This document shows positions 530-20,252 of a DNA stretch of 64,000 nucleotides, piece after piece. A program made the translations under genes and the position numbers. The notes beneath the pieces were generated by a model that saw nothing but the letters and a program-made list of their open reading frames with translations, was not told the DNA's origin and made no database searches. The DNA is from Mariniblastus sp. (GTDB lineage: Bacteria; Planctomycetota; Planctomycetia; Pirellulales; Pirellulaceae). The stretch spans positions 62,001-126,000 of the forward strand of contig JAQXDZ010000050.1 of the NCBI GenBank assembly GCA_029251085.1. Reading direction: 5' to 3'. Within the stretch, counting starts at the first letter, position 1. Each line of letters begins with the position of its first letter.

Positions 530-2182
530 TTGACGATCATGAAAGATATATTTTTTTTGAGCTTGGCGTTTGGTGGGATTGCTGCGCTTACATTTTCATT
601 GACGCGAGTAGAGAAGATTGCTGCTCCCAAATTTGCCAAAGACAATGATCTTGTTTTAGCGGATGTTGACCTGGTTGCCGAAGCGATTGACTCCGCGTTT
701 GCCGAGGATTGGTCGGCTCGGAATTTGTCTCATGCAGATCAAGTGAATAACCTTCTGGTAGCTCGGCGGATATCCCTTGGAATCGCTGGGACGATACCCT
801 CGTTAGCTGAAATTCGTGAATTTGAATCTCAGCCTGAGTCGGAGCAAATCGACTGGTGGGTTGCCCGATTGTTGGAGGATCGAAGAACTAGTAACTACCT
901 TGCCGAACGGTTGACGCGAGCCTTAGTCGGTGTCGAGGAAGGCCCTTTTTTGATTTTTCGTCGTCGTCGGTTCGTCAGTTGGTTATCGGATAAGTTGTTT
1001 CTAAATAAACCTTATGATGAATTAGTTGCCGAGATATTGACGGAGGAAGGCCTTTGGACAGATGCTCCGGCGGTCAATTTTTACACGCGAACAATCTCGC
1101 AAAATGAGGAAAGTAATAAGCCTGATCCGGTGCTTTTGGCAGGGCGAACTTCCCGCGCTTTTCTTGGAATGCGAATCGACTGCTTGCAATGTCATGATGA
1201 TTTCTTAGATACGGTTGAATTAGGAAATGCGGAAGACTTGCGGAGCGGGACTCAGCAAGATTTTCATTCTCTGGCGGCATTTTTTAGTGATGTAGAGAGT
1301 TCGCTGCTTGGCATCCGAGATGTAAAGGAGCACCAGCCCTATGAGTATCAATTGCTGGACGAGGACAAGGCTTCCGTGGTTGTTCCGATGGTTCCTTTTC
1401 ATGCGGAGTTAGATGGGAAAGAAAGTAATCAACGGACGAGACTTGCTAATTGGGTAACTCATCAAGAAAACCGGCCTTTCGCCCGAGCGGCTGTTAATCG
1501 AATGTGGGCAATTATGTTCGGACGCGGGTTGATCAACCCCGTCGATGAGATTCCTCTAGGCGGACCGTTTCCAAAGGTGTTGGAGATTTTGACGGATGAT
1601 TTTGTCAGTCACGGTTATGATTTGCATCGTTTGATTCGGGTGATCGGCTCGACGCAAGCCTTGAGATTAAACAGTGCAGCTGATTTCACGGTCACGCCGA
1701 GTCATGAAAATTTAGTCGCTGTTTTCCCAACGATTCGACTGCGTCCCGAGCAGGTGGCTGGCGCTATCGCGCAATCTACGAGTTTAACGACAATCAACTC
1801 GGGAGCGCACATCACGACGCGACTGATGAAATTTGGCCAGCAGAACGAGTTTGTTAGTCGTTTTGGCGACCCCGGAGAAGATGAGTTCAGTGATCGGGGA
1901 GAAACTGTGACCCAGCGGTTGTTAATGCTGAATGGTGAGATGGTTGGCGAACGGTTAGAGAATATTTTAAACGCCCCTTCCCACCTGGCCAGCCTGTCAC
2001 CGGATCTCGACACGGCTGTCGATGTTATCTATTTGACAACGCTGACTCGGCATCCGAATGAGGAGGAAAGAAAACAAGCAGTGAGTGGGCTGAGTGGGCA
2101 AGACCGCGAACGGCGTGGTGAGGAAGTTATTGATTTATACTGGTCGTTATTGAATTGTGCTGAGTTTCGATGGAATCATTAG
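530..2182 (+). CDS. DUF1549/DUF1553 planctomycete secreted/anchored protein
   Basis: A 550-residue protein of the planctomycete DUF1549 plus DUF1553 type. An N-terminal hydrophobic segment (about residues 5-24) suggests export or anchoring. DUF1549 covers roughly residues 45-260 and includes the family's conserved CXXCH motif, here CLQCHDD with C218, C221 and H222, which resembles a c-type haem site. DUF1553 occupies the C-terminal half, with the signature NRMWAIMFGRGL followed by P-DEIPLGGPFP. Many relatives are longer and carry a separate N-terminal cytochrome domain, which is absent here. The chosen start is TTG at 530, six bases after GAGAG; an ATG at 539 is the alternative. The DUF1501 gene follows 89 bp downstream on the same strand, the usual pairing in this phylum, so they probably form an operon. 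The biochemical function is not established. Confidence 0.85.
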   Translation: MTIMKDIFFLSLAFGGIAALTFSLTRVEKIAAPKFAKDNDLVLADVDLVAEAIDSAFAEDWSARNLSHADQVNNLLVARRISLGIAGTIPSLAEIREFESQPESEQIDWWVARLLEDRRTSNYLAERLTRALVGVEEGPFLIFRRRRFVSWLSDKLFLNKPYDELVAEILTEEGLWTDAPAVNFYTRTISQNEESNKPDPVLLAGRTSRAFLGMRIDCLQCHDDFLDTVELGNAEDLRSGTQQDFHSLAAFFSDVESSLLGIRDVKEHQPYEYQLLDEDKASVVVPMVPFHAELDGKESNQRTRLANWVTHQENRPFARAAVNRMWAIMFGRGLINPVDEIPLGGPFPKVLEILTDDFVSHGYDLHRLIRVIGSTQALRLNSAADFTVTPSHENLVAVFPTIRLRPEQVAGAIAQSTSLTTINSGAHITTRLMKFGQQNEFVSRFGDPGEDEFSDRGETVTQRLLMLNGEMVGERLENILNAPSHLASLSPDLDTAVDVIYLTTLTRHPNEEERKQAVSGLSGQDRERRGEEVIDLYWSLLNCAEFRWNH

Positions 2183-2271
2183 TTGGAATTCTGTATCGCA
2201 ACCCGGAGGGTTGCCAAGAAGATTGTTGTGTTTGACTGCCGTGACTTTTAAAAGATGGACTGCTTGGTGCA

Positions 2272-3597
2272 ATGATGGTGAATCCAACAGATTTTATTCA
2301 AAAGCAACAAACCCATTTTCACCGCCGTTCTTTGTTGAAGATGGCGGGACTAAGTGGTTTGTCGTGGTTGACTCCACTGGCTACGCGTCTTGCGAGGAGT
2401 GCCGAGGCCGACCAAAGGGGAAAGGCAAAGTCGCTAATCGTTTTATGGCTTGAAGGCGCCCCGAGTCAGCTTGAAACTTTCGATCCGCACGAAGGCACTA
2501 TGATCGCTGGCGGCAGTAAGGCGCGAAAAACCAGTGTGAATGGCATCAGTCTGGGAGACGGGATGCAGCAGGTTGCTGAGCAAATGGAGCATATCTCGTT
2601 GATTCGGTCAGTGACCAGTAAAGAAGGCGATCACGAACGAGCGATCTACAATGCTAAGACTGGTTTTCGGCCAGATCCGACATTGATTCATCCATCCATT
2701 GGAAGTGTCATCTGCCACCAGATGAATCAAGAGCAAGATCGATTGGTTGATATCCCCCGTCACATTTCGATTTTGCCCAGCAAGACGCCGGGGCGTGGTG
2801 GTTATCTTGGGGATCAGTTCGACGCCTTCAAGGTGTTTGATCCAGTCCAGCCAATTCCCGATGTGGCAGCGCGAGTTGAAACAAAGCGTCAGTTAAGCCG
2901 ACTGGAGAAATTGAAATTTGCTGACCAGCAGTTTTTAAAAAATCGCGGCAACAATTCGATTATTGGAGAATCACTTAAAAGTTCCAATCTTGATGCCGCG
3001 ATTCGGTTGATGTCTTCCGATCAGTTAAATGCTTTCGATGTCAGCCAAGTTTCAGAATCGGAGAGAGCACAATTTGGTGATACTCCGTTTGGGAGAAGTT
3101 GTCTCGCAGCACTAAGGCTGATTGAGACCGGAGTAAGGTGCGTCGAGGTGACGTTAACTGGTTGGGATTCGCATGTTAATAATCACGAGACCCAGGCGGG
3201 GCGCATCAATATTCTTGACCCAGCCTACGCTTCTTTGATCAAGGAGTTAAAAAAGAGAGATTTGTTGGATTCGACGATGGTTGTCTGTGGCGGAGAGTTT
3301 GGAAGGACGCCTTGGATTAATCCGCTTGGTGGTCGCGACCATTGGCCTCATGGTTTTAGCATTGCTTTGGCTGGAGGCGGGATTCAGGGCGGGCGCGTTA
3401 TTGGCGAAACGGATCCTAATCCTCAACGGGAATCGCCACCCAAAGCTTCACTCAAACAGCCGCATCCGATTGAGGATGTGCACGCGACGGTGTTCTCAGC
3501 GATGGGAATCGAATTTGAAACCGAGCTAGACACTCCGATCGGGCGTCCAATGAAAATCTGCGAAGGAAAGCCTGTCCAAGCTCTGCTGGACGTTTAG
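2272..3597 (+). CDS. DUF1501 family protein, Tat-type signal
   Basis: A 441-residue DUF1501 protein, a sulfatase/alkaline-phosphatase-fold relative common in planctomycetes and usually encoded beside DUF1549/DUF1553 genes, as here. The N-terminus has a twin-arginine-like signal (HRRSLLKMAGLSGLSWL, about residues 17-33), so export by Tat is likely. Typical family segments are visible: LWLEGAPSQLETFDPH near residue 60, GWDSHVNNH near 300, and GGEFGRTPWIN with GGRDHWPHGFS near 340-362. The last two are the expected metal-site region of this fold. The function is unknown; an enzymatic role on an extracytoplasmic polymer is only inference. Transcription probably ends at the bidirectional hairpin at 3657-3691. 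Confidence 0.88.
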   Translation: MMVNPTDFIQKQQTHFHRRSLLKMAGLSGLSWLTPLATRLARSAEADQRGKAKSLIVLWLEGAPSQLETFDPHEGTMIAGGSKARKTSVNGISLGDGMQQVAEQMEHISLIRSVTSKEGDHERAIYNAKTGFRPDPTLIHPSIGSVICHQMNQEQDRLVDIPRHISILPSKTPGRGGYLGDQFDAFKVFDPVQPIPDVAARVETKRQLSRLEKLKFADQQFLKNRGNNSIIGESLKSSNLDAAIRLMSSDQLNAFDVSQVSESERAQFGDTPFGRSCLAALRLIETGVRCVEVTLTGWDSHVNNHETQAGRINILDPAYASLIKELKKRDLLDSTMVVCGGEFGRTPWINPLGGRDHWPHGFSIALAGGGIQGGRVIGETDPNPQRESPPKASLKQPHPIEDVHATVFSAMGIEFETELDTPIGRPMKICEGKPVQALLDV

Positions 3598-3721: not shown

Positions 3722-6700
3722 TTACTGGAAACCGCCACCGCCGCCACCACCACCGAATCCGCCACCGCCACCTCCTTGGCCACCGCCACCTTGCCCACCA
3801 CCGCTGTTGGATAGGCCTTCGGCTGTGCTAGCGTCACCAAGAATGTTGAATGTGCTGACCGACTGGATTGCGTTGAAGTTAGGAGAAACGCTGATTAACA
3901 CGTGAAGGCGATCTGCCGTGGTGGCATGGTTCACAGTGAAGAACGTTCCTTCTGGGACTTGGGTAATAATCGGCTGGTAACCAACGACGCCTCGGTTATC
4001 GAGTTGGCCGTTAAGTGGCCCCGCAAGGTTACCGTTATCGACTCCAGAAAGTAAACCGCCGAAGTAGTCGCTTGCCGCACCCGATGAGTAGCCTTCCGAA
4101 AGCTCTTGAGCAAGAACATTTCGGTTTGCAATCATTTGGTTTCGAACAACCGTTTCAATTTCGTGATCTTCAAGAGATTCAGTCCGTCTACCTTGGTCGA
4201 GGGCGAATAAAACTATCGCACCCTTGTCGTCGATCTCAACTTGCTTCGTCATTGAAGCAGCCCGAGGAGAATTGTAGTGGTTGTGAATGGCAACGGTTGC
4301 TTTGCCCGAAGTCACAGTTCCCCAAACTCGCTTGATGACTAGTTGATAGTCGCCAGCAAAACCCTTGGGAAGAATGTACTTTTCGGAAACTACACCCGAA
4401 GCTCCTGCCTTTGGTGAGAAACTATCTCTCATCAAAATTCCGCCACCACGAGTTCGCTTTGCAAGTCGCGAGCAGGTGGTTCCACCAGGCTCTACAACGT
4501 AGAGATCAAGATCAGCATCGCCTGTCCAACTGACTTCGATGTGACAATCTCGCTCTTTCGCTGCCTGTAGCTTCGTTTCGAAAGCGGCGAACTCTTCAGC
4601 CTGCCCGCTCTCACGGTAGTTGTTGAGGATTGCGGTCGCTGCAAATTGAGCTTGTCGAACGATTTCTGGGTGATCCGGCCATTCCTGACTAAGAACACCA
4701 GTTGTCGCCCATTTGATCGCTTCAACGTCGCCAATGGTTTGGGCAGCACGAAGACCAATCACAAACGGTTCCGTTCGAGTAGGGTTGTTGAGTGCATAGC
4801 CTTTGAGGAGGCGAATCGCTCGCTTCTCCATGCCGTTGCGAGCCATATACTGAGCGGCGATCAAGATATCGTTATCGTCTTCTGACATATCAACTGCAGA
4901 CATTAGTGCCCGTTCGATATCAGCTTGAGGACGACCAGAGATTTGCATCGCCAGTACGAGAGCTTCGTGCATCCAAGGTTGGAACTGATCGTGCTGGATA
5001 GCAGCAAGGATCATGGTCACGGCTTGGTCAGCATTTCGTTCTTTCATAAGTTTCTTAGCAGTCGCTCGAACATCCGCTTGGTTTGCGAATGTCTCGCCGA
5101 AGTAAGTGCTCCAGGCGATTGTCGGATCGTTAATGTCCGTCAACACGATTGCTTGTGGCTTGCGATCGACTGAAGCAGGCTTGTCGGTTACGAGGCTGAC
5201 TTTTTCTGTATCTTGGATACAGAACATTCCACCACCGCCGCCGCCGCCAAAGTTACCGCCACCGCCGCCGAATCCGCCTTGGCCACCGCCGCCGAATCCG
5301 CCTTGGCCACCGCCGCCGAATCCGCCACCGCCACCGAATCCACCACCACCTGAAGTCTTAGGGGCGACAAGATCTCCGACGTTGTAGACGTTGGTTACGA
5401 ACCACTTCACATCTTCTGCATCATCGAGTGAGATGATTTTTAGGACTTCGTCTTTGACAACGAATGTTGCGTTATACTTTTCGAGCATAATTCGAAGAGC
5501 ATTTTTAAAGCGAATGCCGCTTAAGTTCTCGGTAATCAATTCATCTTCAGTTAGAGAGTCGTCAGATGCCGAGCTGGTCAAAACGATGTTGATTCCGTAC
5601 TTAATCTCAAGTTCTTCTTCAACTTCGCTCCACGGTCTCTCGTCGTAATTTAGATCCGCAGTTTCGTTGAGTGCGTCAAGAATTGCTTCTTCTGTTGCAC
5701 TTCCAGTCAAGCGAATGTTTTGATACTTCTTGCGTCGAATGACTTTCTTTCGCCACTCGTCCGCGTCTGGCCAAAGCATCATGTTCTTTGGGTCACCCGG
5801 GAATGGGATGGTGGCTTGCTCGATTGAGAACATCGATGATTGGAACGCGTATTCCTTCTGTCGACGCAATTCCATCACTTCGGCATAGTTCTTGGCGAAG
5901 TGAGCATTCGCGTTAGAGACAATCACTGCCGGATCGTACGGGGCAACTTGGAATGCCTTCTCCGTTACGGCTAATGATTCGCTGTACTCGCCTTCCTGCA
6001 GAAGTGAGTTGTATCGATTAATTAATTCCGATACTTCTTCCTGGCTGCGGGCAATGCGGTCAGCTTCCATTTTCAACTGACCAGCAGTCGCAATGTTGAT
6101 GTCCGCGAGTGCCTGGCGGTCATCGAACGCAATCTTCTCTTGTCGAGAGGATAGCAAGCTAGACTCGATTGAATGTCGCAGAGTCGAGCGAGTATCCGGA
6201 TAAAGATCTGTTGTTTGATCAATGATCTCTAGCATGTTTTTAAGACGCTCGATCGCAATGTCCGGATTCGTTCGCAACTCTTGTCGTGCTCGTTTTGATT
6301 CGTATTGAACCTGCTGAGTAATTTTCTGGTTGATGATTGCAACACGCTGTTCTTCAGTTAAAAGAAGATCGGTTGATCCACCCTTCGCATCCTGAAGCAA
6401 CTGTCCAATCTCATCACCACCCTCTTGGATCATTCGTAATCCACCGTCGGGAGTCTCGACTGCCATCGGTAGAGTAACGGCTCCGCCGGCGGGTGCTGCC
6501 GCTGGAGTTTTTACAGCAGGCGTTGCTGCTGGAGTTTCAACCGCTGGTTTTGCTGCTGGAGTTTCATCAACTGGCTTTGCTGCTGCAGGAGCCGGCTTAG
6601 TCTTGGTTGAGTTTCCAAATGGATCGTCGTCATCCTGAACTTTGTAAGTTGCAGCCATCGCTAGGAGGTCAGCCTGCGTGTTCGCAGGATCAGCACTTAG

Positions 6701-7867
6701 GTTAATAGCAGCAGAAGCTAGTTTCCGGGCTGTTTCCCGATCGCCTGCGGCCAAAGCGGTTTCGCCAAGGTCACTAAGTCGATTAGCTTCCGCCGTTCGG
6801 ATTCGTGCGAACTCGCGAAGTCCTTCAGACCCAATTGTTGGTAAGGTGAGCCCCGAATCTTTGCGGGCGTCTTCGATCATGCCAGGCAGGAATGAAAATT
6901 CTGTGTTGGCAAGTTCCGGTGTGATTTGCCAAGTGATGTTTTCCTGATTGCCGTTTGCGATCCCAGTAAGCTGTAAAGCCACGTTGTTTCGGTCGGCGAG
7001 GCTTCCAAGGATAATGTTGTCTCTATCGGTTCGAAGCGGTGGGAACTGGCTTGGGAAACTTTCCAAAACCGAATCACCCCATTGGCCCGAAACTGGCCAA
7101 AGAACAGCTCCATGGATTGTGTTAACCAAACCAACCGCTGAAACGCGGACGTCTTGCTCGTCGCTATCAATGAATAGGTTGCCGCCGGTGTTGTTCGCCA
7201 ACGCAGCCATAATCTCGTTGTTGCGTGCTGGACCGATCGCAAAGCTAGAAACCGAAATTTTGTTCTTGGTTAATCCGGAAATGAGTTCACCAAAAATTTC
7301 AGAATGAAGCAAGCTGCCTCGGCTGACTCCGTCACCGATGTAGATGACGTTGTTGTTTCGTTGTGTTTCCTTTGGGAAAGCTTTTGATGCAGAAACCAGC
7401 ATGGCTTCCATGTCGGTCGAACCGAGTGGAACTCGCTCGCTCAAATTCCCCAGAGCAGTGTTTAAATCTTCCGAGTCCGGACTGACAAAACCTTTTGTCA
7501 TTGGAACAGGGTCAAGATCGACTGCCACAATCTGAATCAGATCGTCAGCATTCAAATTCTTGATGATGTGTTTAAGCGTGGCAATTGAATCCCGCTTAAA
7601 TTCACCAGACTGGCTGGCAGAGGTGTCAATGTAAACGACCACGTTGCTGGCCCGCTCAGTCTCAATGGAGATCTGAGGTTTCAGACTCAATGCGAAGTGT
7701 GTTTCCCCCGCATTATCAAAAGTCGCCATTTTGACTTGGTTCGTCGATGACTTGGATTCTTCCGAATCGTCTGCGAACGATGTATTGGCACCAGTTGTCT
7801 GCAAGCCAATGGCCAGCAAAGCAACAAACATTCCTCTAAGCGCGACTTTGGTCGAGCACTTGGACAT
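3722..7867 (-). CDS. Giant secreted VWA-domain protein with Gly-rich repeats
   Basis: About 1381 residues from ATG 7867, or 1411 from an in-frame ATG at 7957. From 7867 the protein begins with a classical signal peptide (basic start, hydrophobic core, cleavage near SFA-DD). A von Willebrand A domain follows (MIDAS motif DTSAS, about residue 81; second metal-loop Thr in GSTDME). Next come an Ala/Pro repeat linker of KPAVETPAA type near 430-480, a long helical region, and a segment resembling a secretin/TonB short N-terminal domain (GIRFKNALRIMLEKYN...). A Gly-rich block (GGFGGGGQ repeats, DNA 5224-5358), a helical repeat region, a beta domain recalling DUF2135/YfaP (SWTGDADLDLYVVEPGG) and a Gly-rich tail complete it. 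Both candidate starts carry a good SD. The domain mix suggests a surface or periplasmic adhesion or scaffold protein, but that is inference. Confidence 0.8.
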   Translation of the reverse strand: MSKCSTKVALRGMFVALLAIGLQTTGANTSFADDSEESKSSTNQVKMATFDNAGETHFALSLKPQISIETERASNVVVYIDTSASQSGEFKRDSIATLKHIIKNLNADDLIQIVAVDLDPVPMTKGFVSPDSEDLNTALGNLSERVPLGSTDMEAMLVSASKAFPKETQRNNNVIYIGDGVSRGSLLHSEIFGELISGLTKNKISVSSFAIGPARNNEIMAALANNTGGNLFIDSDEQDVRVSAVGLVNTIHGAVLWPVSGQWGDSVLESFPSQFPPLRTDRDNIILGSLADRNNVALQLTGIANGNQENITWQITPELANTEFSFLPGMIEDARKDSGLTLPTIGSEGLREFARIRTAEANRLSDLGETALAAGDRETARKLASAAINLSADPANTQADLLAMAATYKVQDDDDPFGNSTKTKPAPAAAKPVDETPAAKPAVETPAATPAVKTPAAAPAGGAVTLPMAVETPDGGLRMIQEGGDEIGQLLQDAKGGSTDLLLTEEQRVAIINQKITQQVQYESKRARQELRTNPDIAIERLKNMLEIIDQTTDLYPDTRSTLRHSIESSLLSSRQEKIAFDDRQALADINIATAGQLKMEADRIARSQEEVSELINRYNSLLQEGEYSESLAVTEKAFQVAPYDPAVIVSNANAHFAKNYAEVMELRRQKEYAFQSSMFSIEQATIPFPGDPKNMMLWPDADEWRKKVIRRKKYQNIRLTGSATEEAILDALNETADLNYDERPWSEVEEELEIKYGINIVLTSSASDDSLTEDELITENLSGIRFKNALRIMLEKYNATFVVKDEVLKIISLDDAEDVKWFVTNVYNVGDLVAPKTSGGGGFGGGGGFGGGGQGGFGGGGQGGFGGGGGNFGGGGGGGMFCIQDTEKVSLVTDKPASVDRKPQAIVLTDINDPTIAWSTYFGETFANQADVRATAKKLMKERNADQAVTMILAAIQHDQFQPWMHEALVLAMQISGRPQADIERALMSAVDMSEDDNDILIAAQYMARNGMEKRAIRLLKGYALNNPTRTEPFVIGLRAAQTIGDVEAIKWATTGVLSQEWPDHPEIVRQAQFAATAILNNYRESGQAEEFAAFETKLQAAKERDCHIEVSWTGDADLDLYVVEPGGTTCSRLAKRTRGGGILMRDSFSPKAGASGVVSEKYILPKGFAGDYQLVIKRVWGTVTSGKATVAIHNHYNSPRAASMTKQVEIDDKGAIVLFALDQGRRTESLEDHEIETVVRNQMIANRNVLAQELSEGYSSGAASDYFGGLLSGVDNGNLAGPLNGQLDNRGVVGYQPIITQVPEGTFFTVNHATTADRLHVLISVSPNFNAIQSVSTFNILGDASTAEGLSNSGGGQGGGGQGGGGGGFGGGGGGGGFQ

Positions 7868-8763
7868 AACGAACTCCAACACCGAAAAGATTTCGAAGGA
7901 ATGTGCGTTCCGGAATCGCACAGCCCTGCCTTGCCCTGTAATGGTTAACTTGGTCATCGATGACCTCCAACACTATTGTATTTTGAGAACTGGCGATACG
8001 CTACCAAAAACCCTCGATTTTGCCCCATTTACGGCCTCCACGTAGTCCTAAATATCACTACTACCTGATGCACCGATGTGACCCGAGTACTTAAGCACAC
8101 CGAGTCGAACTTAGCTGAGTCAAAAAATCCTTGTAATGGTAGGCCAGTTCACTCGTAAAGAGTGGCCTCTATTTGTCACTAGTATTGTAAAAACCGACAA
8201 AGAGCGAGGAAATACTGGAAAATCTATCTTCCATGATAGTATTCCTGCCGTTTGATCCGATCAAACGTGCTCCATGGGTTGGTATCGGAGTCTGAGGCCG
8301 CTGAAGGTAGAAAATTTGATTCCATCCAACAGCTTTCGCAAGCAAGAGACGCTAAATGACGATTGGGTAGAATTTAACGATTACGTTCTGATACGGGGTT
8401 AGTGGCAGCCATTGTTCCGTTAATGGTGCTTTAGTGTAGTGGCTTCCTTGAAAACCTTGTTTCCCAGTTGCTCAAGCCGCAGAATATTCCAAAGCAGTCT
8501 CTGGAAACTTATCCAAGTGAACTGCCGCACGCCAGCGAGGCTTGGATTAATTAAAAGAATGACGTTGAGAACGGTTCGGCCGAGACATTTGGCAATTAAC
8601 TCTCAAATGCGGAGAAACTTGGTTTTCAAAGTGGTTGAGTTCCGAGCGGGCCGGCAGTCGGCTTCTAGTTTTGACGGCGTCCTTCAAATTGAATCAAAAG
8701 CCTAACCCGGGAAATTATCAATGAGTTGATGATTAAGAGAGGTACCAGTTTGCCTGGCTCCCC
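7868..8763. other. Long intergenic region with a perfect 19-bp palindrome
   Basis: About 0.9 kb separates the VWA gene from the next minus-strand gene end. The first 90 bases are the in-frame leader extension of the VWA gene (alternative ATG at 7957 with SD GGAGGT). Further out, 8249-8267 reads CGTTTGATCCGATCAAACG, a perfect inverted repeat with a single central base and no T-tract, so it looks more like an operator than a terminator. An 88-codon frame at 8439-8705 has no recognisable features and is probably chance. No RNA gene was recognised. Confidence 0.5.
8249..8267. promoter_or_regulatory. Perfect 19-bp palindrome, candidate operator
   Basis: CGTTTGATC, C, GATCAAACG: nine base pairs of perfect dyad symmetry around one base, a size and shape typical of sites for dimeric HTH repressors. 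It lies about 290-380 bp upstream of the two possible starts of the VWA-domain gene. No regulator is encoded next to it. The assignment as an operator is inference from symmetry only. Confidence 0.4.
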
Positions 8764-9975
8764 TTATTCAGAGATGCTTTGCTCAAGAGGATTATGAAGA
8801 GAGTTTGAAGCCGGGTCGTCATTTTCCTTCGCCCCTTCTTGCTGCATACCTTCCGAGTGTTTAATTGCTCTAGATATGCAGCCGACACCTATCGCAAGGA
8901 TATCGAATTGGTTCGCAACCCGCACTTTGGGTTTGTTTTCTGATTTAATTAGCCGGTATTCAGTCGAAAAGTTTTCAACCGCTTGAAATTCAAGGACAGC
9001 GGCAAAACGATCAACTGCGTTGTTTAGTCTGGCGATCGAAGCTGTGGTAAATTTAGCGAGTTCTTTCGAGTCATTGATAAGGTTGTTGGCGATCTGCAAT
9101 AAACGCGTTTTTAAAACGCTGTTTTGTTGAAGAGCAGATTCGTCTGTAACCTCTGATTTTTTGACCGTCTGTTTTTTGATCGGCCGGTAACTCACAGGGA
9201 TTGCTTTGGTTTTATTTGGTTGTCTCGCGATTTGCATCTCGTTAGCTTTTTGTGTGGCCGCTTCCAAGTCAGAAAACGTTACCTCCCAGCGGTCGCAATC
9301 TTGGTAGTACTGCCAGTAATCGTCGCCATTTTCCGCAGGAAGCATTACCAGTTGCACATTGCTTATTGTTTCTGAGCCCACCGCTTTGGCAGAAGATTTC
9401 GACCGGCGAGCGGGGGGATAATCTTCGTTGGCTGGGTTGGTTGCCTGATTCCATTGGTCGGAAATCGTCGACCGTAATTGGTTGTTGAGGGAACTTAATT
9501 GGGGAACGATCCGCTGCCTACAGAAATCGTATACGGTTTCCTCAAACTGCTGTTGAATGAATTTTTCAATTGGCTTGAACGCCGGGCGGATTCGCTGATT
9601 TGTGTTTTTTATTTGCAGTCGAATCGTCTCGAAGCTTTCTTCGAGCAGGTTGGCAATCGAGCTTTCTGGAGCAGATTCCTCTTTTTCCGGGCTCGTATTT
9701 TCTGGGATTAATTGGGAGGGGCAAATTTTCCGCAGGGGGTTATGTGGCTCAGTAAGTTCGTTACTTCCACCGTGCCCAATGAGGATTCTGTCTGAATTTA
9801 AAGCCTGATCTGCGAGCTGTGCAAGTTGAGTGGAATTCGGGTCAATCTGGCCAAATAGAATCGCCGCGGAGATTGCGGAAGTCGACTGATCGGCGCAAGC
9901 CGTCTTAATCGTGCCAGAATGCTGAAATATTATAAAAAGCATCAACAGACATGCTTTGGGAGAGATCTGTGCCAT
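8764..9975 (-). CDS. Secreted hypothetical protein
   Basis: A 403-residue protein that I do not recognise. It begins with a signal-peptide-like stretch (about residues 8-28, ending near CADQS), so it is probably exported. The middle (about 105-180) is Gln/Asn/Glu-rich and likely helical. A short folded-looking segment follows around 205-245 (NVQLVMLPAENGDDYW ... CDRWEVTFSDLEAA), then a second helical region. The C-terminus is acidic and disordered-looking. Only a few Cys are present (near 26, 84, 151, 228 and 365) and no catalytic motif is visible. The start ATG has GGAG 13 bases upstream, a rather long spacing. It stands alone, with non-coding DNA on both sides. Confidence 0.6.
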   Translation of the reverse strand: MAQISPKACLLMLFIIFQHSGTIKTACADQSTSAISAAILFGQIDPNSTQLAQLADQALNSDRILIGHGGSNELTEPHNPLRKICPSQLIPENTSPEKEESAPESSIANLLEESFETIRLQIKNTNQRIRPAFKPIEKFIQQQFEETVYDFCRQRIVPQLSSLNNQLRSTISDQWNQATNPANEDYPPARRSKSSAKAVGSETISNVQLVMLPAENGDDYWQYYQDCDRWEVTFSDLEAATQKANEMQIARQPNKTKAIPVSYRPIKKQTVKKSEVTDESALQQNSVLKTRLLQIANNLINDSKELAKFTTASIARLNNAVDRFAAVLEFQAVENFSTEYRLIKSENKPKVRVANQFDILAIGVGCISRAIKHSEGMQQEGAKENDDPASNSLHNPLEQSISE

Positions 9976-10419
9976 CGTTTTGCTGAACTCCAGGCGTTAA
10001 TAGATGCGAAGCTTAGGGGTGCACAGTCGCTTCGGTTATTAAATGGGAATACGTAAGGTAAAAGGCAATTGCAGTTACCGCGGCGTACTTAAACTATCGG
10101 GTCCAGAGAAATTGATCCTTTTGGGGAAAGTCTACAAGTTGTCGAAACCTTGAGACTTCGGATCGCGATTTGCAAATTGACGGGGTCGTGCCGATATCGA
10201 GTATCGTAGGCAATGGGGATTTTGCGTGTGCCAATTGTTAGGGGTAGTAACGCAACCTGGCCGTTTAATTAGAGTTGAAGAATTTAGAAGGGAGTCTAAA
10301 CTGCCAGACTCGTCTGTTGAGGGACTTGCTGGAGCGGGGACTTGCTGGAGCGGGTTTGCTCCCTTAGTCTCAAACGTGATATTTGTTTTTTAAAAACCTA
10401 GAGTGAAAGCAAAGGTAGC
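9976..10419. other. Intergenic region with a short tandem duplication
   Basis: About 440 bp between the divergent secreted-protein gene and ispD. Nothing coding is visible. The unit GGGACTTGCTGGAGCG occurs twice in direct tandem at 10321-10336 and 10337-10352, followed by GGTTTGCTCCC, which can pair with the GGAGC of the second copy. The duplication sits about 70-100 bp ahead of ispD, in its probable promoter/leader region. Confidence 0.5.
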
Positions 10420-11160
10420 ATGCCAAAGTTTTCCGTGATTCTCGCTGCAGCGGGTAAAAGTAGCCGGTTTCGTGATCCGAATTACAAGAAGCCGTTTGCG
10501 TTGCTCAACCGCAAAGCTGTTTGGTTATATTCAGCCGAGTTGTTTTTGAAACGCAATGACGTGAAGCAAGTCATCATCGTTATTTCACCTGAAGATAAAG
10601 ATGAGTTTCTCGGAAAGTATGGCCCCAACCTTGCGGTGCTCGGTGTTGAGGTTGTTCTCGGTGGTGCAGAGCGTTCGGACTCAGTTCAAAATGCGCTGGC
10701 GAAGGTCGACTCCGATTCGACTCACGTTGTGATTCATGATGCTGCCCGGCCTTGTCTCAATGCAGATTTAATTGAATCAGTCTTTCAATCTTCAAAAACG
10801 AACCCCGCAGTAATTCCTGCTGTTCCAGTGACAAGCACTTTGAAATTATCTAAAAATGGTAGTGCCGTAGATAAAACAGTCGATCGTTCTCATTTATATG
10901 AGGCTCAGACTCCGCAGGTTTTCGAACGAGAATTACTCATTTCGATGTTTGCTAATCGCGGCGAACTAAAACCAACCGATGAGTCGCAACTGGCCGAGGA
11001 ATTGGGGTATCCCATTGCGATCGTCAAGGGATCCGTTTTTAACATCAAAATCACGTCCAAGCAGGATCTTGCCTTCGCCAGAGCTTGTTTAGAGTCGCAA
11101 CCAAAGCCAAAATTCGATGCCCCGATTCACCCGTTTGCCGATGATAATCTATTTCGATAG
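10420..11160 (+). CDS. ispD: 2-C-methyl-D-erythritol 4-phosphate cytidylyltransferase
   Basis: IspD joins CTP and 2-C-methyl-D-erythritol 4-phosphate in the cytosol, the third step of the MEP route to isoprenoids. The 246-residue length is normal. The nucleotide-binding start (VILAAAGKSSRF with the KKPF segment, residues 6-26) is present, as are IHDAARPC (about 108-115), the VPVTSTLK stretch, the AQTPQVF motif and TDESQLAEE near 187. The ATG has AAAGG about 7 bases upstream. No other MEP gene lies nearby. The gene is convergent with the DUF1598-like gene. Confidence 0.95.
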   Translation: MPKFSVILAAAGKSSRFRDPNYKKPFALLNRKAVWLYSAELFLKRNDVKQVIIVISPEDKDEFLGKYGPNLAVLGVEVVLGGAERSDSVQNALAKVDSDSTHVVIHDAARPCLNADLIESVFQSSKTNPAVIPAVPVTSTLKLSKNGSAVDKTVDRSHLYEAQTPQVFERELLISMFANRGELKPTDESQLAEELGYPIAIVKGSVFNIKITSKQDLAFARACLESQPKPKFDAPIHPFADDNLFR

Positions 11161-11224
11161 CGGCGGCACTGTTCGTATTTCCGGTGCGAGATTTAGGGGC
11201 GAGGTTTAGGGTATGCGTCGTCGA

Positions 11225-13042
11225 CTAGTCCCACCACCATCGTTGAGCTTGTGAATCAGGAGTTTGATTCTTTAGGCGGTCATCTAGCTCAGAGCTTGAT
11301 TTTTGAATGATTGCATCTGTCAATTGATCTGTGGAAGAGACAGAAACACCGCCGCTGACGCCAAGGATGTGAAAATCGCGTCGGGCACCCGGTTTGCGTA
11401 GGCGAAGATATTTCTCGCTGACAACCGATTGAACCTCGGTGGCGACGTGATCCCTTTTCATTGGGTAGACCAATTGAGATTGAATTGGATTCGAATTGAC
11501 CGGTTCGTTAGGCGTGCCGAAAAATGTTTGTTCCCAGTCTGCTTTTCCGCTTGCGTTTTTTTGGCGAACAATTTCCGCAACAAGTGCGAGATCAAAGATA
11601 TTTTTAAGCTGATTATAAACGGGATACTTTTTTGAAATCTCACTGAAATGACTCGTGAAATCTCGCGCGAAACCGCGTGTTGGAATGTCAGATTTTCCAG
11701 TGTGAATTCGCTCTCCGTCACGACTAACGAATTCATTTTCACTAAGTACTTTGACACTCGACCCAGAAAAAGTAAAAACGGTTTCGTCAGGATTTGCCGA
11801 AACAGGTTGGTCATTGAGTGTGAACCACCAGCGGACAACTGAGAATGAGGGCAGGGTTCCGTCAGGTTTTAGTTTTAATCTATCTAGGTAGCTGGGGATT
11901 TCCGGAATGCTTTTTTCCAGCCCCATTCCCAATAGCTTCATCCGATAATCCGCTTCTACAAGAACCCGGGCAGTATGGGTACCGCGTGGGATACCGAAAA
12001 CTTCGATGTCCTGTTCACCGAGCGTCGATTTCGCCTTGTTTGACCATTGGCGTCCCGTGAGCGATGTCGAAGCAAGAAAGTTTTTGGTGGCGACCAAGTT
12101 TTCTTGACGGGGTGTGATAGAGCAACCGAATTTCCCACTGTGGGTGTAAGCATTTCGGAGGCAGTTCACAAGGTCATCGAGTTGCAAGATCGGCTTACCC
12201 GAACGGGAGTTGACGGCTCGCTGGTTTTCATCGAAATCCCAAGGGCCGGCTGGGCCAGCGACTACGATATCCCCAGTTTCCGGATAGAAAATCAGGTGAG
12301 TTATCTCGTAGAGGCCGGCGAGGTTTCGCATTGATTCATCAAGTGGTTGACCCTGTGCGGTCAGTAATTGTGCCGCTCTTTCTAAGCGGGGGAGTGAAAC
12401 TTTCCGCAGAGGACTAGGCCAAGTGACTGCGCCCTTCGTACCTTGGGATGCAGCCTGTCGCCAAACTTCCGTCAAGCCGTTTACTTTTCTTCCTTGGATT
12501 TTGGACAGAACCCCTGACGAGTTAACAAAGACTCCCGCGGGGAAGGCCTGGATTGTGCCGAGTCCCTGTCCAGTATCCTGCCAAGAATCAGGCTGAATCG
12601 TGCCCTGGATCAGATCGATCAATGGTTGGAAATCTGATTCCGTGATCCCTCCGCGAGCGGCTGCCAAGGGACTGTTGTGATTTGCATAGAGACCGGAAAG
12701 TGAATCGGAACGGGATTGCTCGCCATCAATCATGCCGGCCGTGTCGTAGGCCGTCTGGTAGGCACCCGAGCTATATTGCCGGTCTGAGATTTTTGAAAGC
12801 CACTGGTCGCGAGACTGTGACGGTAGAGAGTCTGCAAGTTTGAGGGCTACTGAGAACTCGCCAGCTTGTAGATGGTCAGTGATTTCAGCGGGTGTTGCAG
12901 TTTGTGCCGCAGCAGAGCCCACGAAGAGACTTGGGATAAAAAGAAGGACGGGGCAGCAAAAGATGGATCGGAAAAGAATCCTGAGGATTCTGTCTGGCGT
13001 TGCTGTTGATCCAAACCAACGCACAAAAATTTCTGACCGCAT
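11225..13042 (-). CDS. DUF1598-like secreted protein
   Basis: About 605 residues from ATG 13042, which has an excellent SD (GGGAGAG, 4-5 bases upstream). The frame continues to a TTG at 13099, but without an SD. The N-terminus has a basic start and a long hydrophobic core (ILFRSIFCCPVLLFIPSL) ending near GSAAAQ, so it is secreted. The body matches my recollection of the planctomycete family DUF1598, with segments such as AARGGITESDFQPLIDLI and FPAGVFVNSSGVL. It also has a downstream beta-rich part with GDIVVAGPAGPW and a basic C-terminal part ending in WWWD. No catalytic motif is evident and the function is unknown. Confidence 0.75.
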   Translation of the reverse strand: MRSEIFVRWFGSTATPDRILRILFRSIFCCPVLLFIPSLFVGSAAAQTATPAEITDHLQAGEFSVALKLADSLPSQSRDQWLSKISDRQYSSGAYQTAYDTAGMIDGEQSRSDSLSGLYANHNSPLAAARGGITESDFQPLIDLIQGTIQPDSWQDTGQGLGTIQAFPAGVFVNSSGVLSKIQGRKVNGLTEVWRQAASQGTKGAVTWPSPLRKVSLPRLERAAQLLTAQGQPLDESMRNLAGLYEITHLIFYPETGDIVVAGPAGPWDFDENQRAVNSRSGKPILQLDDLVNCLRNAYTHSGKFGCSITPRQENLVATKNFLASTSLTGRQWSNKAKSTLGEQDIEVFGIPRGTHTARVLVEADYRMKLLGMGLEKSIPEIPSYLDRLKLKPDGTLPSFSVVRWWFTLNDQPVSANPDETVFTFSGSSVKVLSENEFVSRDGERIHTGKSDIPTRGFARDFTSHFSEISKKYPVYNQLKNIFDLALVAEIVRQKNASGKADWEQTFFGTPNEPVNSNPIQSQLVYPMKRDHVATEVQSVVSEKYLRLRKPGARRDFHILGVSGGVSVSSTDQLTDAIIQKSSSELDDRLKNQTPDSQAQRWWWD

Positions 13043-15101: not shown

Positions 15102-16304
15102 TTATTGGCTTCGATCTGAGGCAAGGTAAAGTCTCAAATGATTAAGGACTTCCTTGATGGCGCGTTCTTCCCGCCAGCCCGAATGGCCACTATATCGAAA
15201 TTGAGTCTGTTCGACTGTGGGCGTTTCAAAGATCATCACTTGATAAAACGATTGCCCTTCTCGAACTAAATCAGACGTGCGATCGATGGGGCCAATGGCA
15301 ATTCCCAGTGTTGCGCCACTTGATTCAATAAGGCTTCTCATCTCATCGAGGCTTGGCATTTGTTCGCGGGTTTCGTTCGCGCAGATCAGAGGTGTCGGGT
15401 TGGTGATCTGGTTTAGCCGCTCACCGACGACCCCTTGGAGTCCGGCATCAATGACAGCAAGTTTTTGTTGTTGATTCGTCAGAAGATTGTGAACGACTTG
15501 TTGGAGTTCGATGCCATTTTCACCGAACACAAGCTGGCCAAGCGTTTGGCGGATCGTTTGGATTGTTGGTTGCATCTTGTTCATGCAATCCGCTTGAGTC
15601 GTACCGCTAGTTGAGACACGGAGAGAAATGGTCGCCGAGCTGGCTGTGATTCCTACTTGGGGATCTCGTCCGCGTTGAACTAGATTGGGGAGCAGTGATT
15701 CAATATGGCTCTCGCCGGAACCAAAGCAGTGGAGTGTGTGGTGGTGGATGATCGATGAATCGCCTGCTTGTGTTCTCAAGCTCGCTTCAACGGACTGAGA
15801 CCACATTTGTTTCATTTCAACTGGGACTCCCGGTAGCGCGATGATTCGGCAATCCCTTCCGTCTTGGCGTCGCATTCGAAAATCAATTCCGGGAGCAGTT
15901 CCTTCCGGGTTGTCGATAGCCACGGCACCTTGAGGGAATTCCGCCTGAATCGAATTGTTTTCGGGCATCTCACGACCCCGAGATTCAAACATTGAGCGAA
16001 TGCGAGTCAATATTTCCGGGTGAGTGACCAAAGGAACATCAGCCATTTGGGCAATCGCCAATCGCGTTAAATCATCGGCCGTTGGGCCGAGGCCACCAGT
16101 GGCAACTACGACGTCTACACGGTTTGCGGCGTGCCGAAATACGTCGACATTGTCTTCAAGGTCGTCGCCGACGGTGGTGTGGAAGGCGACTTCGATCCCA
16201 ATTTCTCCCAATTGACTACTCAGCCATTGTGAGTTCGTATCGAGACGAATCCCGCTGGTCATTTCGTCGCCGATTGAGATTACTTCAGCGCGGAGAGAGG
16301 ACAT
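15102..16304 (-). CDS. CinA-like protein with a degenerate C-terminal domain
   Basis: A 400-residue CinA-family protein. The N-terminal MocF/COG1058-type domain is well preserved (AEVISIGDEMTSG, DTNSQWLSSQL, VVATGGLGPTADDLTR, GVPVEMKQMW) and may act as the NMN/ADP-ribose pyrophosphatase-like half. The middle KH-like part is also present. The C-terminal part (from about residue 278) should be an NMN amidohydrolase (PncC) with an AESCTGGLL-type active site. Here that position reads LAVIDAGLQGVVGERL, without the Ser-Cys-Thr-Gly-Gly core, although the end (GHSGWREERAIKEVL) still matches the family. The amidohydrolase activity is therefore probably lost. Confidence 0.85.
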   Translation of the reverse strand: MSSLRAEVISIGDEMTSGIRLDTNSQWLSSQLGEIGIEVAFHTTVGDDLEDNVDVFRHAANRVDVVVATGGLGPTADDLTRLAIAQMADVPLVTHPEILTRIRSMFESRGREMPENNSIQAEFPQGAVAIDNPEGTAPGIDFRMRRQDGRDCRIIALPGVPVEMKQMWSQSVEASLRTQAGDSSIIHHHTLHCFGSGESHIESLLPNLVQRGRDPQVGITASSATISLRVSTSGTTQADCMNKMQPTIQTIRQTLGQLVFGENGIELQQVVHNLLTNQQQKLAVIDAGLQGVVGERLNQITNPTPLICANETREQMPSLDEMRSLIESSGATLGIAIGPIDRTSDLVREGQSFYQVMIFETPTVEQTQFRYSGHSGWREERAIKEVLNHLRLYLASDRSQ

Positions 16305-16413
16305 GTTTGTTTTTCAATGACGACGTAAAGGTGGATGGAATTGAGCTTCAATAAAGCTGGTTTGCCAGCGACTGCTCGTTTCACGAGGTTCTTGGGGGGA
16401 ATGAGTACTACAA

Positions 16414-18060
16414 CTAACTGGCCCATCCGCTGCCATCCGCTTTTTCACCGCACATGTTAACCACCATGCCGAGATGTTTTGCCATGGCTGCCTTCGTAAG
16501 CGCGGCATTGTCAGCGTCTTGAGCCGTGTGAGCGTAAGCGACCTGAATGTGGTTACTTTGGTGTCTCGCCATCATTTGATCCCGACTGACTCCGTAAGTG
16601 ACGGCATGCATGATTGGCCATTGTGGAGTTGTTGCTTCGAGGCGTCGCTGGGTTTCCGATTCGGGAAGTTGAACGACTCCAGCGCGGCCGATGTCCATGT
16701 GGAGTCGATTGTTGGCGACAAAAATTCTCGACCAGACGATTTCTCCCGGCTTGGAAACTCCCTGAATCGTTCCTCCGCCGTTAGGGAAATACATTGCCGG
16801 TTGGCGGTAACTTGTCGCGCCGCTCCAACCACCGATCAAGTGGGCGGGAGGAACGCTTCCGCTGATTAGAAAAACCCAAACATATTGGTCGGTCGTTCCG
16901 GATTCATCCCAATCACCCCAGCGAAGATCGTGAAGCGTGTTTTCGACAGGCTGTTTAAGTGTGCTGTGGATGCGGTAAGTCATTAGGCCATCGAGTCCGG
17001 CACATTGATCGACTTCATTGAAGTGCGGCAGCGGTTGGCCACGATAGAGAGTACGCTTTCCATCGCGACTCTTGACGGGTGGCCTTTGCCGATTGTTAAG
17101 CGTACCTTCGACAAGGTCGCTTGCTGGCATTAAGTCTTTCAATCCTTGTTGGTACTGGATGCCGATCGTATCACAACCAAAATCATCAGCAATTCGAACA
17201 GCGGCTATGTACATTTTACACTGAAGACGAATTTGTTTGTCAGTAAGATGTTTGGCGTGTTGCTTACCTGTTTCAAACTTCATTCCTTTTTTGGTCATCC
17301 AATCCCTGACATCATCAGCCTCTTGGTTAGTAACCTGAGTTGATTCATAGTAAAGTGCAGATTGGCTAAGTCGTTCTTTGAAGACGCCTGTGGGATTCAA
17401 TAAATGATCTGGAATGATTGCGTTAAACATTCCCATGCAGCCTTCGTCAAAGACTCCCATGATCGCTTTTTGTGTTTGCAATTCTGTGGCCAGTTTTTGG
17501 CCTGTTGTTTCGCATGCATCAGGGATGTTGATTTTTCGAATCGGCGTCGCGTGATTGGTAGCATGTCTGACTTTTCCGGTTTCCAGCCAGGTGTTCAATT
17601 TCTTGATGAATTTCTTATCTGAAAAATCCTCGGCCCAGAGCGTGCTGTAATTAACACCGGCTTTTGTGAGCGAGCCGTTGAGATTTAGCATGCCTACGAG
17701 TCCGGGCCATTGGCCTGACCAATTGGCGACAGTAAGGATTGGACCTCGGTGAGTGAGTAATCCAGGAAGAACATGATGAGAGTATTGCCAAACGGCTTCG
17801 GCAACGATGATTGGCATTTCGGGATCAATGTTGGCAAAAACTTCCATGCCTTTTTTTTGAGAATCGATAAACCCATGCTTGGATCCACGCTTTGGCTGGT
17901 GCGCTCGTTTTAATTGAAAACCGCAGCTTTTGACTGCCTTGGCTAGTTCCTTTTCCATTTCTAATTGGGCGGCCCAGCAGACTTCATTGGCAGAAGTTCG
18001 AAGGTCACCACTGGCGATCAGGGCAATCGTCTTGATCGCTGAAGTTTTAGTTTTTGTCAT
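16414..18060 (-). CDS. L-fucose/D-arabinose isomerase-like protein
   Basis: A 548-residue protein related to the L-fucose isomerase (FucI) / AraA fold family, which interconverts aldoses and ketoses with a divalent metal. Matching segments are [19 protein letters not shown] (about residues 205-223, carrying the expected catalytic Glu), [14 protein letters not shown] (about 300, with the metal-site Asp region) and a late His in [12 protein letters not shown]. The spacing differs from classical FucI and several Trp-rich segments near the C-terminus are specific, so the substrate is uncertain. Conserved relatives without a proven substrate occur in planctomycetes. No transport or kinase gene accompanies it. 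It may act in breakdown of algal sugars such as fucose, which would suit the sulfatase elsewhere in the window; that is inference. Confidence 0.7.
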
Positions 18061-18386
18061 TGGTGAGTCGGTGTAGAACGAAATAGGGAACTTAGTTGTG
18101 ATAGAGCCGGTATAGAGGCATTGCCTCGTCTGCCCGATCTTACCCGTTTTAACAGGTCCTGCAAGGAATCGAAATTGCGTATGGGCTGGTGTAATAGGAA
18201 TCGACGGTCTAATCCGACTCTGATTTTGTTAATTTACGTTGAAACTGAAATGCCCCGTTTCATTCTTCCCTTCATTCGGGGACGAACGGTTGTTAAGCTA
18301 GAAATCTCATCAAATGCATCGCTATGGAATCGCTCAACCCGTTGGTGCCGGTAGCGATCCCGTTCGAATAAATTAGGGTAATTAAT
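18061..18386. other. Divergent leader region between isomerase-like gene and glmS
   Basis: A 326-bp divergent intergenic region. It contains a perfect short palindrome GAGGCATTGCCTC (18115-18127) and a looser CCCCG...CGGGG hairpin (about 18253-18280). I looked for a glmS ribozyme core and did not see one. Promoters for both flanking genes presumably lie here but no clear -35/-10 pair stands out. Confidence 0.4.
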
Positions 18387-20252
18387 ATGTGTGGTATCGT
18401 TGGATACGTTGGGCCGCGTGTGGCTCAAGATTTTTTGCTTGAGGGTCTTCGGCGATTAGAGTACCGAGGTTACGACAGCGCGGGAACGGCTACGATTAAC
18501 TCTGAACGGCAGCTGAACGTCACTAAATCAGTCGGTAGGATTGCGAGGTTAGCTCAGGAAGTTGCCGCTTCGCCCTGCGATTCAGGAATTGGGATTGGCC
18601 ACACTCGATGGGCGACGCACGGAGCAGCAACGGTTGACAATGCTCATCCGCATCTGGGAGGCGCAGAGACGTTGGCGATTGCACACAATGGTGTGATTGA
18701 GAATTTTGCGGAGCTCCGGACAAGTCTTAAAGCCAAAGGCTATGAATTTAATTCCGAAACAGACACGGAAGTTGTCGCCCACCTCATCGCGGACTGCCTT
18801 AGTCAGATCTCGGATAATTCAGAAGTTTCCCCGACACCAGGAATTGCTGTCGACGCGATTAAGAAAGCGATCGGACAGCTGCGTGGAACTTTCGGGTTGG
18901 CAATTATTTTTAAGCAGTGGCCGGATTCGATTTTTGCCGCCCGCCTTGGTAGCCCGCTGGTTATTGGTGTGGGGGATGGCGAGCACTTTCTTGCCAGCGA
19001 CGCACAACCTTTGATTGGATTTACGGAACGGATTGTCTATCTGGCAGACAATCAGGTTGCGATTTTGACCGCGGATTCTTTGGAGGTCACGCATCGAGAT
19101 GCCGGTCTCGTTTCTCATCATGTACGCGTGTTGGATGTTGAATCCAATCAGGTTGAAATGGGGGATTACGACCACTACATGCTTAAAGAAATATTTGAAC
19201 AACCGGAATCGTTGCGGAATACGATGCGCGGACGTTTGAACGAAGACGATGCAACAGCGGTCTTCGGTGGACTTAATTTGACGCCTCAAGATTTGTTAAA
19301 AGTTAAGCGAGTCGTGTTTACCGCCTGTGGAACAAGTTGGCATTCGTCACTGGTTGGTGAATATTTGCTGGAGGATATTGCCCAGATTCCTGTCGAAGTT
19401 GAGTATGCGAGTGAACTGCGCTATCGGAATCCTCCTATGGATGAAGGCACTTTGCTGTTTGCAATCACGCAAAGTGGAGAAACGGCAGATACGCTTGGAG
19501 CCTTGCGCGAGATGAAGCGGAAGGGGCATATGACAATGGCGATTTGTAATGTTGTTGGAAGTAGCATTGCTCAAGAAGCCGATGGCGGGATTTATTTGCA
19601 CGCTGGTCCGGAGATTGGGGTCGCCTCAACGAAAGCCTACACGTCTCAGTGCATGGCGCTTGTGATGTTGTCGCTCTATCTGGGTCGTTTGCGTCACTTA
19701 AGTTACAACCGTGGCCGGAAGATGATCAGCAGGATTCAAGAGATTCCCGACAAGGTTGAATTAGCTTTGAAGCAGAATGATCACATTGCATCAATTGCTA
19801 AAAAATATCAGGATTGTAATAATTTTCTCTACCTTGGTCGGCACTACAATTTCCCCACCGCGCTCGAAGGCGCGTTAAAGTTAAAAGAGATTAGTTACAT
19901 TCACGCCGAGGGGTATCCTGCGGCTGAAATGAAACACGGCCCAATTGCGCTGGTGGACGAACAGACTCCAAGCGTGTTCGTGATGCCGCAAGGTTTTATC
20001 TACGAAAAAGTGATGTCGAATCTCGAGGAGATCAAAGCTCGTGGAGGACCGGTAATTGCCATCGCTGCTGAGGGAGATGAACGGATTGCAGAAGTCGCAG
20101 ATGACGTAATTTATATCCCGCAGACGGTGGAGTACTTACAGCCAATTGTATCCGCTATTCCACTTCAATTGCTCTCGTATCACATTGCGTTGTTGAGGGG
20201 ATGCGATGTGGATAAGCCAAGAAATCTAGCCAAGAGCGTTACGGTTGAATAA
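18387..20252 (+). CDS. glmS: Glutamine--fructose-6-phosphate aminotransferase
   Basis: GlmS makes glucosamine 6-phosphate from fructose 6-phosphate and glutamine, the entry step to amino-sugar synthesis (LPS and any peptidoglycan). The 621 residues are close to the usual 600-610. The catalytic Cys follows the initiator Met (MCGIVGYVG), and the class II glutaminase signatures RLEYRGYDSAG and GHTRWATHG are intact. Two SIS sugar-isomerase domains follow: FTACGTSWHSSLVGEYLLE near 312 and ALEGALKLKEISYIHAEGY near 495. The C-terminus PRNLAKSVTVE is the canonical ending. AGGG lies 8 bases upstream of the ATG. No cofactor-regulated ribozyme is visible upstream. Confidence 0.97.
   Translation: MCGIVGYVGPRVAQDFLLEGLRRLEYRGYDSAGTATINSERQLNVTKSVGRIARLAQEVAASPCDSGIGIGHTRWATHGAATVDNAHPHLGGAETLAIAHNGVIENFAELRTSLKAKGYEFNSETDTEVVAHLIADCLSQISDNSEVSPTPGIAVDAIKKAIGQLRGTFGLAIIFKQWPDSIFAARLGSPLVIGVGDGEHFLASDAQPLIGFTERIVYLADNQVAILTADSLEVTHRDAGLVSHHVRVLDVESNQVEMGDYDHYMLKEIFEQPESLRNTMRGRLNEDDATAVFGGLNLTPQDLLKVKRVVFTACGTSWHSSLVGEYLLEDIAQIPVEVEYASELRYRNPPMDEGTLLFAITQSGETADTLGALREMKRKGHMTMAICNVVGSSIAQEADGGIYLHAGPEIGVASTKAYTSQCMALVMLSLYLGRLRHLSYNRGRKMISRIQEIPDKVELALKQNDHIASIAKKYQDCNNFLYLGRHYNFPTALEGALKLKEISYIHAEGYPAAEMKHGPIALVDEQTPSVFVMPQGFIYEKVMSNLEEIKARGGPVIAIAAEGDERIAEVADDVIYIPQTVEYLQPIVSAIPLQLLSYHIALLRGCDVDKPRNLAKSVTVE

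Follow-up and report, generated by a model that had tools for sequence, protein, structure and literature searches.

A giant VWA protein of Planctomycetia with segments related to a pilus-type secretin, a candidate part of the planctomycetal envelope

In a 64,000-nucleotide stretch of DNA from Mariniblastus sp. (contig JAQXDZ010000050.1, positions 62,001 to 126,000; hereafter the window), the open reading frame at 3722-7957 of the minus strand encodes a protein of 1411 residues, followed by a stop codon, that we call the giant. Sequence comparison explains much of its chain as homologous to the pilus-type secretin. The protein is widespread in Planctomycetia and not peculiar to one genome, and the full chain was seen only in this class within the genomes sampled. 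Being widespread, class-restricted, apparently secretin-derived and matched to the secretin in its hairpin, the giant is a testable candidate part of the planctomycetal envelope, and we regard it as a good candidate core component of what makes this envelope unusual. The anatomy of the giant is well supported; its function we infer.

The first ATG of the gene is preceded by GGAGG, a good ribosome-binding sequence. Met31 is a possible alternative start and opens what looks by eye like a Sec signal peptide; judging from this N-terminus, the giant is probably exported. We built sub-profiles from an alignment of 33 proteins, the giant among them (alignment A1). The 32 other proteins share its chain at 32-48% identity, which argues that the gene is neither a chance frame nor an assembly chimera. 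The chain divides as follows:

3722-7957, minus strand: whole gene, 1411 residues plus stop; alternative start Met31 at 7865-7867
7772-7867, minus strand: signal-peptide-like stretch, residues 31-62, seen by eye; cleavage after SFA is a guess
6647-7747, minus strand: VWA module, residues 71-437, from the sub-profile; core 105-261 at 7175-7645; metal-ion-dependent adhesion site (MIDAS) residues D111, S113, S115, T181 and D209
6413-6646, minus strand: Pro/Ala-rich linker with a 27-base tandem repeat at 6497-6585
5753-6412, minus strand: helical block HEL, residues 516-735, from the sub-profile; homologous to a helical part of the planctomycetal secretin
5351-5749, minus strand: STN/N0-like domain, residues 737-869, from the sub-profile and Pfam matches in relatives
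5225-5350, minus strand: Gly-rich linker, residues ~870-911, with a tandem repeat at 5255-5336
4568-5116, minus strand: TPR-like helical repeat block, residues 948-1130, from the sub-profile and predicted structure
4172-4564, minus strand: YfaP/DUF2135-like beta domain, residues 1132-1262, from profile comparisons
3836-4000, minus strand: secretin-type beta-hairpin HP, residues 1320-1374, from profile comparisons
3725-3802, minus strand: C-terminal Gly-rich tail, residues ~1386-1411, from the sequence

The link to secretins emerged from a paralogue in the same genome (L003, 1229 residues), which carries the Pfam Secretin family at 85.7 bits and the PilQ and GspD families of NCBIfam below their cut-offs. 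This protein matches the STN profile (E 1.2e-13) and the hairpin profile (E 4e-15, 37% identity over 52 columns), with no match to the YfaP-like profile. Its hairpin lies between two stretches that can be aligned to solved GspD, i.e., within the secretin domain. An open reading frame of 1225-1767 residues with HEL, STN and HP in that order was present in 16 of 18 fetched stretches; these had mostly been picked by a HEL-STN match, and only HP is an independent find there. The two exceptions are a small STN protein (L101) and the gene of L004, a protein discussed below (L102). When the sub-profiles were compared with the secretin of L105 using hhalign, the E-values were 4e-16 for HEL, 1.7e-19 for STN and 3.7e-14 for HP, against 0.037, 0.0074 and 0.0058 for the best of 200 control proteins, a pool from which proteins matched by the sub-profiles had been taken out beforehand. 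All 13 hairpin-bearing frames that were scanned carry Pfam Secretin (seven among the 16, and one, L120, from outside the class). When 12 whole genomes were searched with the hairpin profile, eight showed two places and four (G238, G249, G261, G325) a single one. The single place in G238 is a secretin with its HEL-STN part in an overlapping frame; this secretin (L159:6488-11159) is spread over two overlapping frames of 1347 and 371 residues, a frameshift or an assembly error.

The correspondence extends to the Gly-rich block. In 17 secretins, the 90 residues after STN contain 9-32% Gly (at least 17% in 13 of them), compared with 18-58% in giants, fused or split, and the L120 secretin has long Gly-rich runs at this place. 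Because most of these secretins carry a Gly-enriched linker at the same position, what an earlier, sequence-only reading of the window had called a Gly-rich insertion is best read as an inherited linker. We conclude from these comparisons that the HEL+STN segment and the hairpin of the giant are paralogous to a planctomycetal PilQ/GspD-type secretin. The giant itself has no match to PF00263 at E<=1, and its only match to the secretin domain is the hairpin at 1320-1374. At the position of N1, its TPR block follows the Gly-rich linker, a judgement made from the alignment and not from an N1 profile. With N1 absent and the secretin domain almost entirely missing, the giant is thus not itself a secretin.

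Three secretin loci (L100, L104, L105) have the gene families C7, C6 and C5 ahead of the secretin, and the C7 member of L105 is PilM (92.5 bits, cut-off 27; the Amuc_1101 family scores 175 bits for a cut-off of 650). Between PilM and the secretin of L105 (3256-7334) are two Gly-rich proteins of 575 and 763 residues with no Pfam or NCBIfam match, which by position only we take to be perhaps the counterparts of Akkermansia Amuc_1100 and Amuc_1099. The genome of the window also encodes a small relative (L002:1159-2199, minus strand, contig C14) of ~340 residues, with STN, a short giant-like Gly-rich stretch, what looks by eye like an N1-like tail, and no Pfam match.

The remaining domains were assessed one by one. 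VWA_3 is the only Pfam family to pass its cut-off (residues 105-261, 70.1 bits versus 27); VWA_2 and VWA fall just short, and TPR and others are sub-threshold. The best PDB match of the VWA region is the ITIH heavy chain H4, and the MIDAS residues D-S-S-T-D, present in the giant, are intact in 39 of 49 distinct VWA relatives, with Ser for Thr in four more and other deviations in six. The VWA domain of the sequence-only reading is thereby confirmed. Its helical stalk is indeed helical and turns out to be two separate blocks, HEL and the TPR block; in the predicted structure the latter alone was usable, and a PDB fold search with it returned mostly TPR proteins, none at E<=0.001. The STN-like segment also holds: Pfam STN has no match in the giant at E<=1, and PF07660 is matched directly by nine of the 33 A1 proteins (best E 8e-6), in addition to the profile match of L003. 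One of the 33 further carries a Peptidase_S74 (endosialidase chaperone) match at E 5e-12.

DUF2135 likewise has no Pfam match in the giant, and the DUF2135-like domain that the sequence-only reading proposed showed up as a distant match in profile comparisons. A YfaP-like profile of 26 rows matched L004 (= L102:1-3444) at 96% probability and E 1.4e-9; L004 is encoded in the same genome and combines a VIT domain with a borderline DUF2135 (24.6 or 18.9 bits, cut-off 22). The match of the profile to E. coli YfaP is colinear but weak (15.6%, E 0.0017); the best of 200 control proteins reached 2.9% and E 0.016, and none equalled the L004 or YfaP match. PDB profile searches with the YfaP-like and hairpin blocks gave nothing meaningful. 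No Pfam or NCBIfam family covers the whole chain. The Gly-rich and STN-like parts, which the sequence-only reading could not match to a described family, do correspond to the linker and N0 of the planctomycetal pilus-type secretin. The Gly-rich block itself had been called correctly, and the hairpin near the C-terminus had been missed.

The genome of the window has a single full-length copy. At E<=1e-10, 118 of 119 family genomes had a match, as did 116 of 117 in the order, 59 of 59 in the class and 16 of 59 in the phylum. Any match was counted, also one to the paralogous secretin, so that these figures set an upper limit for the giant; the samples overlap, each including the genome of the window. 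A best E<=1e-50 was reached in 114/119 family genomes (not in G034, G041, G046, G069 and G089) and 108/117 order genomes (not in G046, G125, G132, G145, G152, G155, G172, G186 and G206), where at most five candidates were scored per genome and some assemblies are fragmented, so that a low score does not amount to absence. Outside the order this threshold is not clean, as f24 secretins reach 9e-60. In the class sample, the best values are weaker for f21 and f23 genomes (9e-13 in G252), where only loci that were read establish the giant. Outside the class, 13 of 56 genomes of the phylum were matched, and among the matches listed none covers residues 948-1262, the TPR-YfaP half.

Some genomes carry the chain as two genes. 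Five f22 loci have neighbouring genes for VWA-HEL-STN and TPR-YfaP-hairpin, and seven of eight f21 loci have a HEL-STN gene, with a TPR-YfaP gene beside it in six. The giant is also split at L072, a locus of the same order as the window, and is fused in f24 (L096, L097, L099), with the hairpin present. Two loci (L086, L093) show no gene, probably masked by antisense frames in simple open reading frame picking. In HEL-STN trees, the f22 split forms group with the fused f23/f26 forms (98/89; 96/86 in a corrected tree), and the f22 split therefore looks like a fission. The splits, which fall at the Gly-rich point, suggest that the two halves work together.

To look for partners we surveyed 21 stretches around the giant, the window and 20 from further genomes of the same order. 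They share no conserved partner gene, and in its own genome the giant stands alone, as the sequence-only reading had it. The surface machine which that reading proposed is accordingly a conjecture, export being judged from the N-terminus. An SLC13-type transporter (10/21) and an HtrA-like protease (6/21, five of the six in family f7), both assigned by eye, were rejected as partners for lack of spread; the remaining recurring neighbour families listed are housekeeping-like. In L070 (G182), the giant and a secretin (7904-12148 and 16136-19900) lie ~4 kb from each other, separated by an HtrA-like gene, an arrangement absent from the other 20. All five f22 loci encode, in the same orientation as the split giant and separated from it by at most two open reading frames, a protein of 162-208 residues (L080:14632-15117, L082:7238-7723 and frames of L081, L083 and L084) with a signal-like N-terminus by eye; the L080 copy has no Pfam family at E<=0.01. 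It is a candidate partner limited to f22. In the window, a PSCyt2/PSD1 (DUF1549/DUF1553) gene and a DUF1501 gene (530-3597) adjoin the giant, and stretch L054, from the same genus, shows this gene order too.

What might such a protein do? We tentatively favour a probably exported envelope scaffold of Planctomycetia that either docks at the base of the secretin or imitates this base, while its MIDAS VWA domain binds a ligand. In this view the giant is built partly from a secretin, with the periplasmic half of the latter (HEL, N0/STN and Gly-rich linker) and one hairpin of its outer-membrane domain. At the inner face of the outer membrane, the N0-like part of the giant could pack on the N0 ring of the secretin or make up a separate ring, and its hairpin could contact or join the secretin barrel. 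The VWA domain may bind a protein or polysaccharide through the MIDAS metal, and the TPR and YfaP parts may hold further envelope partners.

The scaffold reading draws on the matching of the two hairpins. Across 13 genomes, giant and secretin hairpins are 53.3% identical within genomes versus 45.4% when permuted (0/5000 permutations as high), and 49.2% versus 45.6% (3/5000) in the 10 genomes that remain without f24. For STN the values are 39.1% versus 35.6% (0/5000), and for HEL the excess is bare (26.7% versus 25.4%, 162/5000). Only the hairpin is matched once f24 is removed, with HEL as an internal control, which speaks against mere composition. The hairpin result hints that giant and secretin stay matched, and it would fit contact between the two proteins. 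In the three f24 genomes, STN is 64-69% and the hairpin 61-73% identical within the genome, and the secretins group with the f24 giants in the corrected tree (92/95). This likeness (L156, L157, L158 with L096, L097, L099), far greater in f24 than elsewhere, would reflect recent exchange or strong matching. A simple, ancient duplication of the secretin is weakened by this branching.

A number of results weigh against the scaffold. Without f24, the within-genome excess disappears for STN (33.6% versus 33.1%, 1186/5000) and HEL (24.7% versus 24.9%, 2909/5000). The permutation ignores relatedness, and two pairs of genomes belong to the same genus; gene conversion without any contact could produce the matching of the hairpins. 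Giants and secretins are parted by a weak branch (77/26; 69/5 in the corrected tree), and since the two are not cleanly parted, the duplication has no firm timing. The f21 loci match only the C-terminal end of the VWA module, without its core, and have no hairpin, and the fused f23/f26 giants that were read (L094, L095, L098) have no detectable hairpin either. Secretin and pilus genes are not conserved neighbours of the giant; one of the 21 stretches (L070) contains a secretin. Finally, the structures predicted for residues 930-1411 and 500-935 from seven near-identical sequences are of poor quality, with mean pLDDT (predicted local distance difference test) values of 50.3 and 50.2.

The same lack of pilus neighbours would suit a stand-alone surface or matrix adhesin, in which ITIH-type VWA and YfaP-like domains would act outside the cell as binders of polysaccharide or protein, the secretin parts being a recycled stalk with no pilus link. 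The Gly-rich tail, the ITIH heavy chains as closest PDB match of the VWA region, and the VIT protein with borderline DUF2135 in the same genome also point this way. We nevertheless find this alternative doubtful: N0/STN domains are periplasmic in known settings, the f21 loci keep HEL-STN and TPR-YfaP and lose the VWA core, the reverse of what an adhesin predicts, and the hairpins of giant and secretin remain matched.

A more specific role is a conjecture that we consider improbable. The outer membrane of Planctomycetes has crateriform structures that bear pili-like fibres and make contact with the inner membrane, and crateriform structures with such fibres are, in the portions of the article consulted, described as unique to them (Boedeker et al., PMC5394234). 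The giant might be a structural part of these, a collar or mixed ring with the pore of the pilus-type secretin, its hairpin in the barrel and its VWA heads binding fibres or captured polymers. The words secretin and Willebrand are absent from the main text of PMC5394234 and of PMC5287468. The literature searched, supplementary tables excluded, yielded no description of the giant, and the accessible parts of PMC10632474, PMC5287468, PMC4960237, PMC11131199 and PMC2754498 contain none; the von Willebrand protein RB7557 in the part seen of PMC2754498, listed with 327 (presumably residues), is too short.

STN domains also signal in FecA/FpvA-type receptors, and the giant could be a transducer talking to a FecR-like anti-sigma factor. 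In the PDB, the STN profile matches only a siderophore-receptor domain (E 0.95), and FecR_C has weak matches in seven of 33 A1 relatives (best E 0.0028). However, STN and its flanks are far closer to secretins, the Pfam scan of the giant shows no TonB-dependent barrel, and none of the seven recurring neighbour families listed resembles, by eye, a sigma or anti-sigma factor, which makes this role very improbable. Least probable of all is a periplasmic accessory of quality control or protease trapping, by analogy with the E. coli yfa operon: the distant YfaP match, the grouping of yfaP, yfaQ and yfaS in K-12 (where yfaS, for an alpha-2-macroglobulin-like protein, is a pseudogene) and the HtrA-like neighbours would favour it, but the latter are nearly confined to f7 and the YfaP-like domain makes up about a tenth of the giant.

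Among known systems, the sortase target of marine proteobacteria (TIGR03788) is distant, the VWA region scoring 36 bits, far under the cut-off of 551.65. VIT proteins with a DUF2135-like domain, such as L004, share with the giant a YfaP/DUF2135-like domain near the C-terminus; the giant has no VIT domain in Pfam, whereas the L102 protein does, and it carries the secretin parts. Its VWA (9.4%) and TPR (0.4%) blocks are not convincingly matched in L004, and an origin within an L004-like gene was dropped. PilY1, the VWA-bearing tip and surface-sensing protein of type IV pili, is, like the giant, large and has a MIDAS VWA domain, and the giant, too, is probably exported. The pilus link of the giant is its sequence link to the pilus-type secretin; unlike PilY1, it has no PilY1/PilC C-terminal beta-propeller family (Pfam scan, E<=1) and no minor-pilin operon in its neighbourhood in the window. 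The PilQ/GspD-type secretin of Planctomycetia shares with the giant, in the same order, a helical block, STN/N0, a linker enriched in Gly (in 13 of 17 secretins) and a single beta-hairpin. Compared with it, the giant lacks N1 and all but this one hairpin of the secretin domain, and has VWA, TPR and YfaP-like parts in addition.
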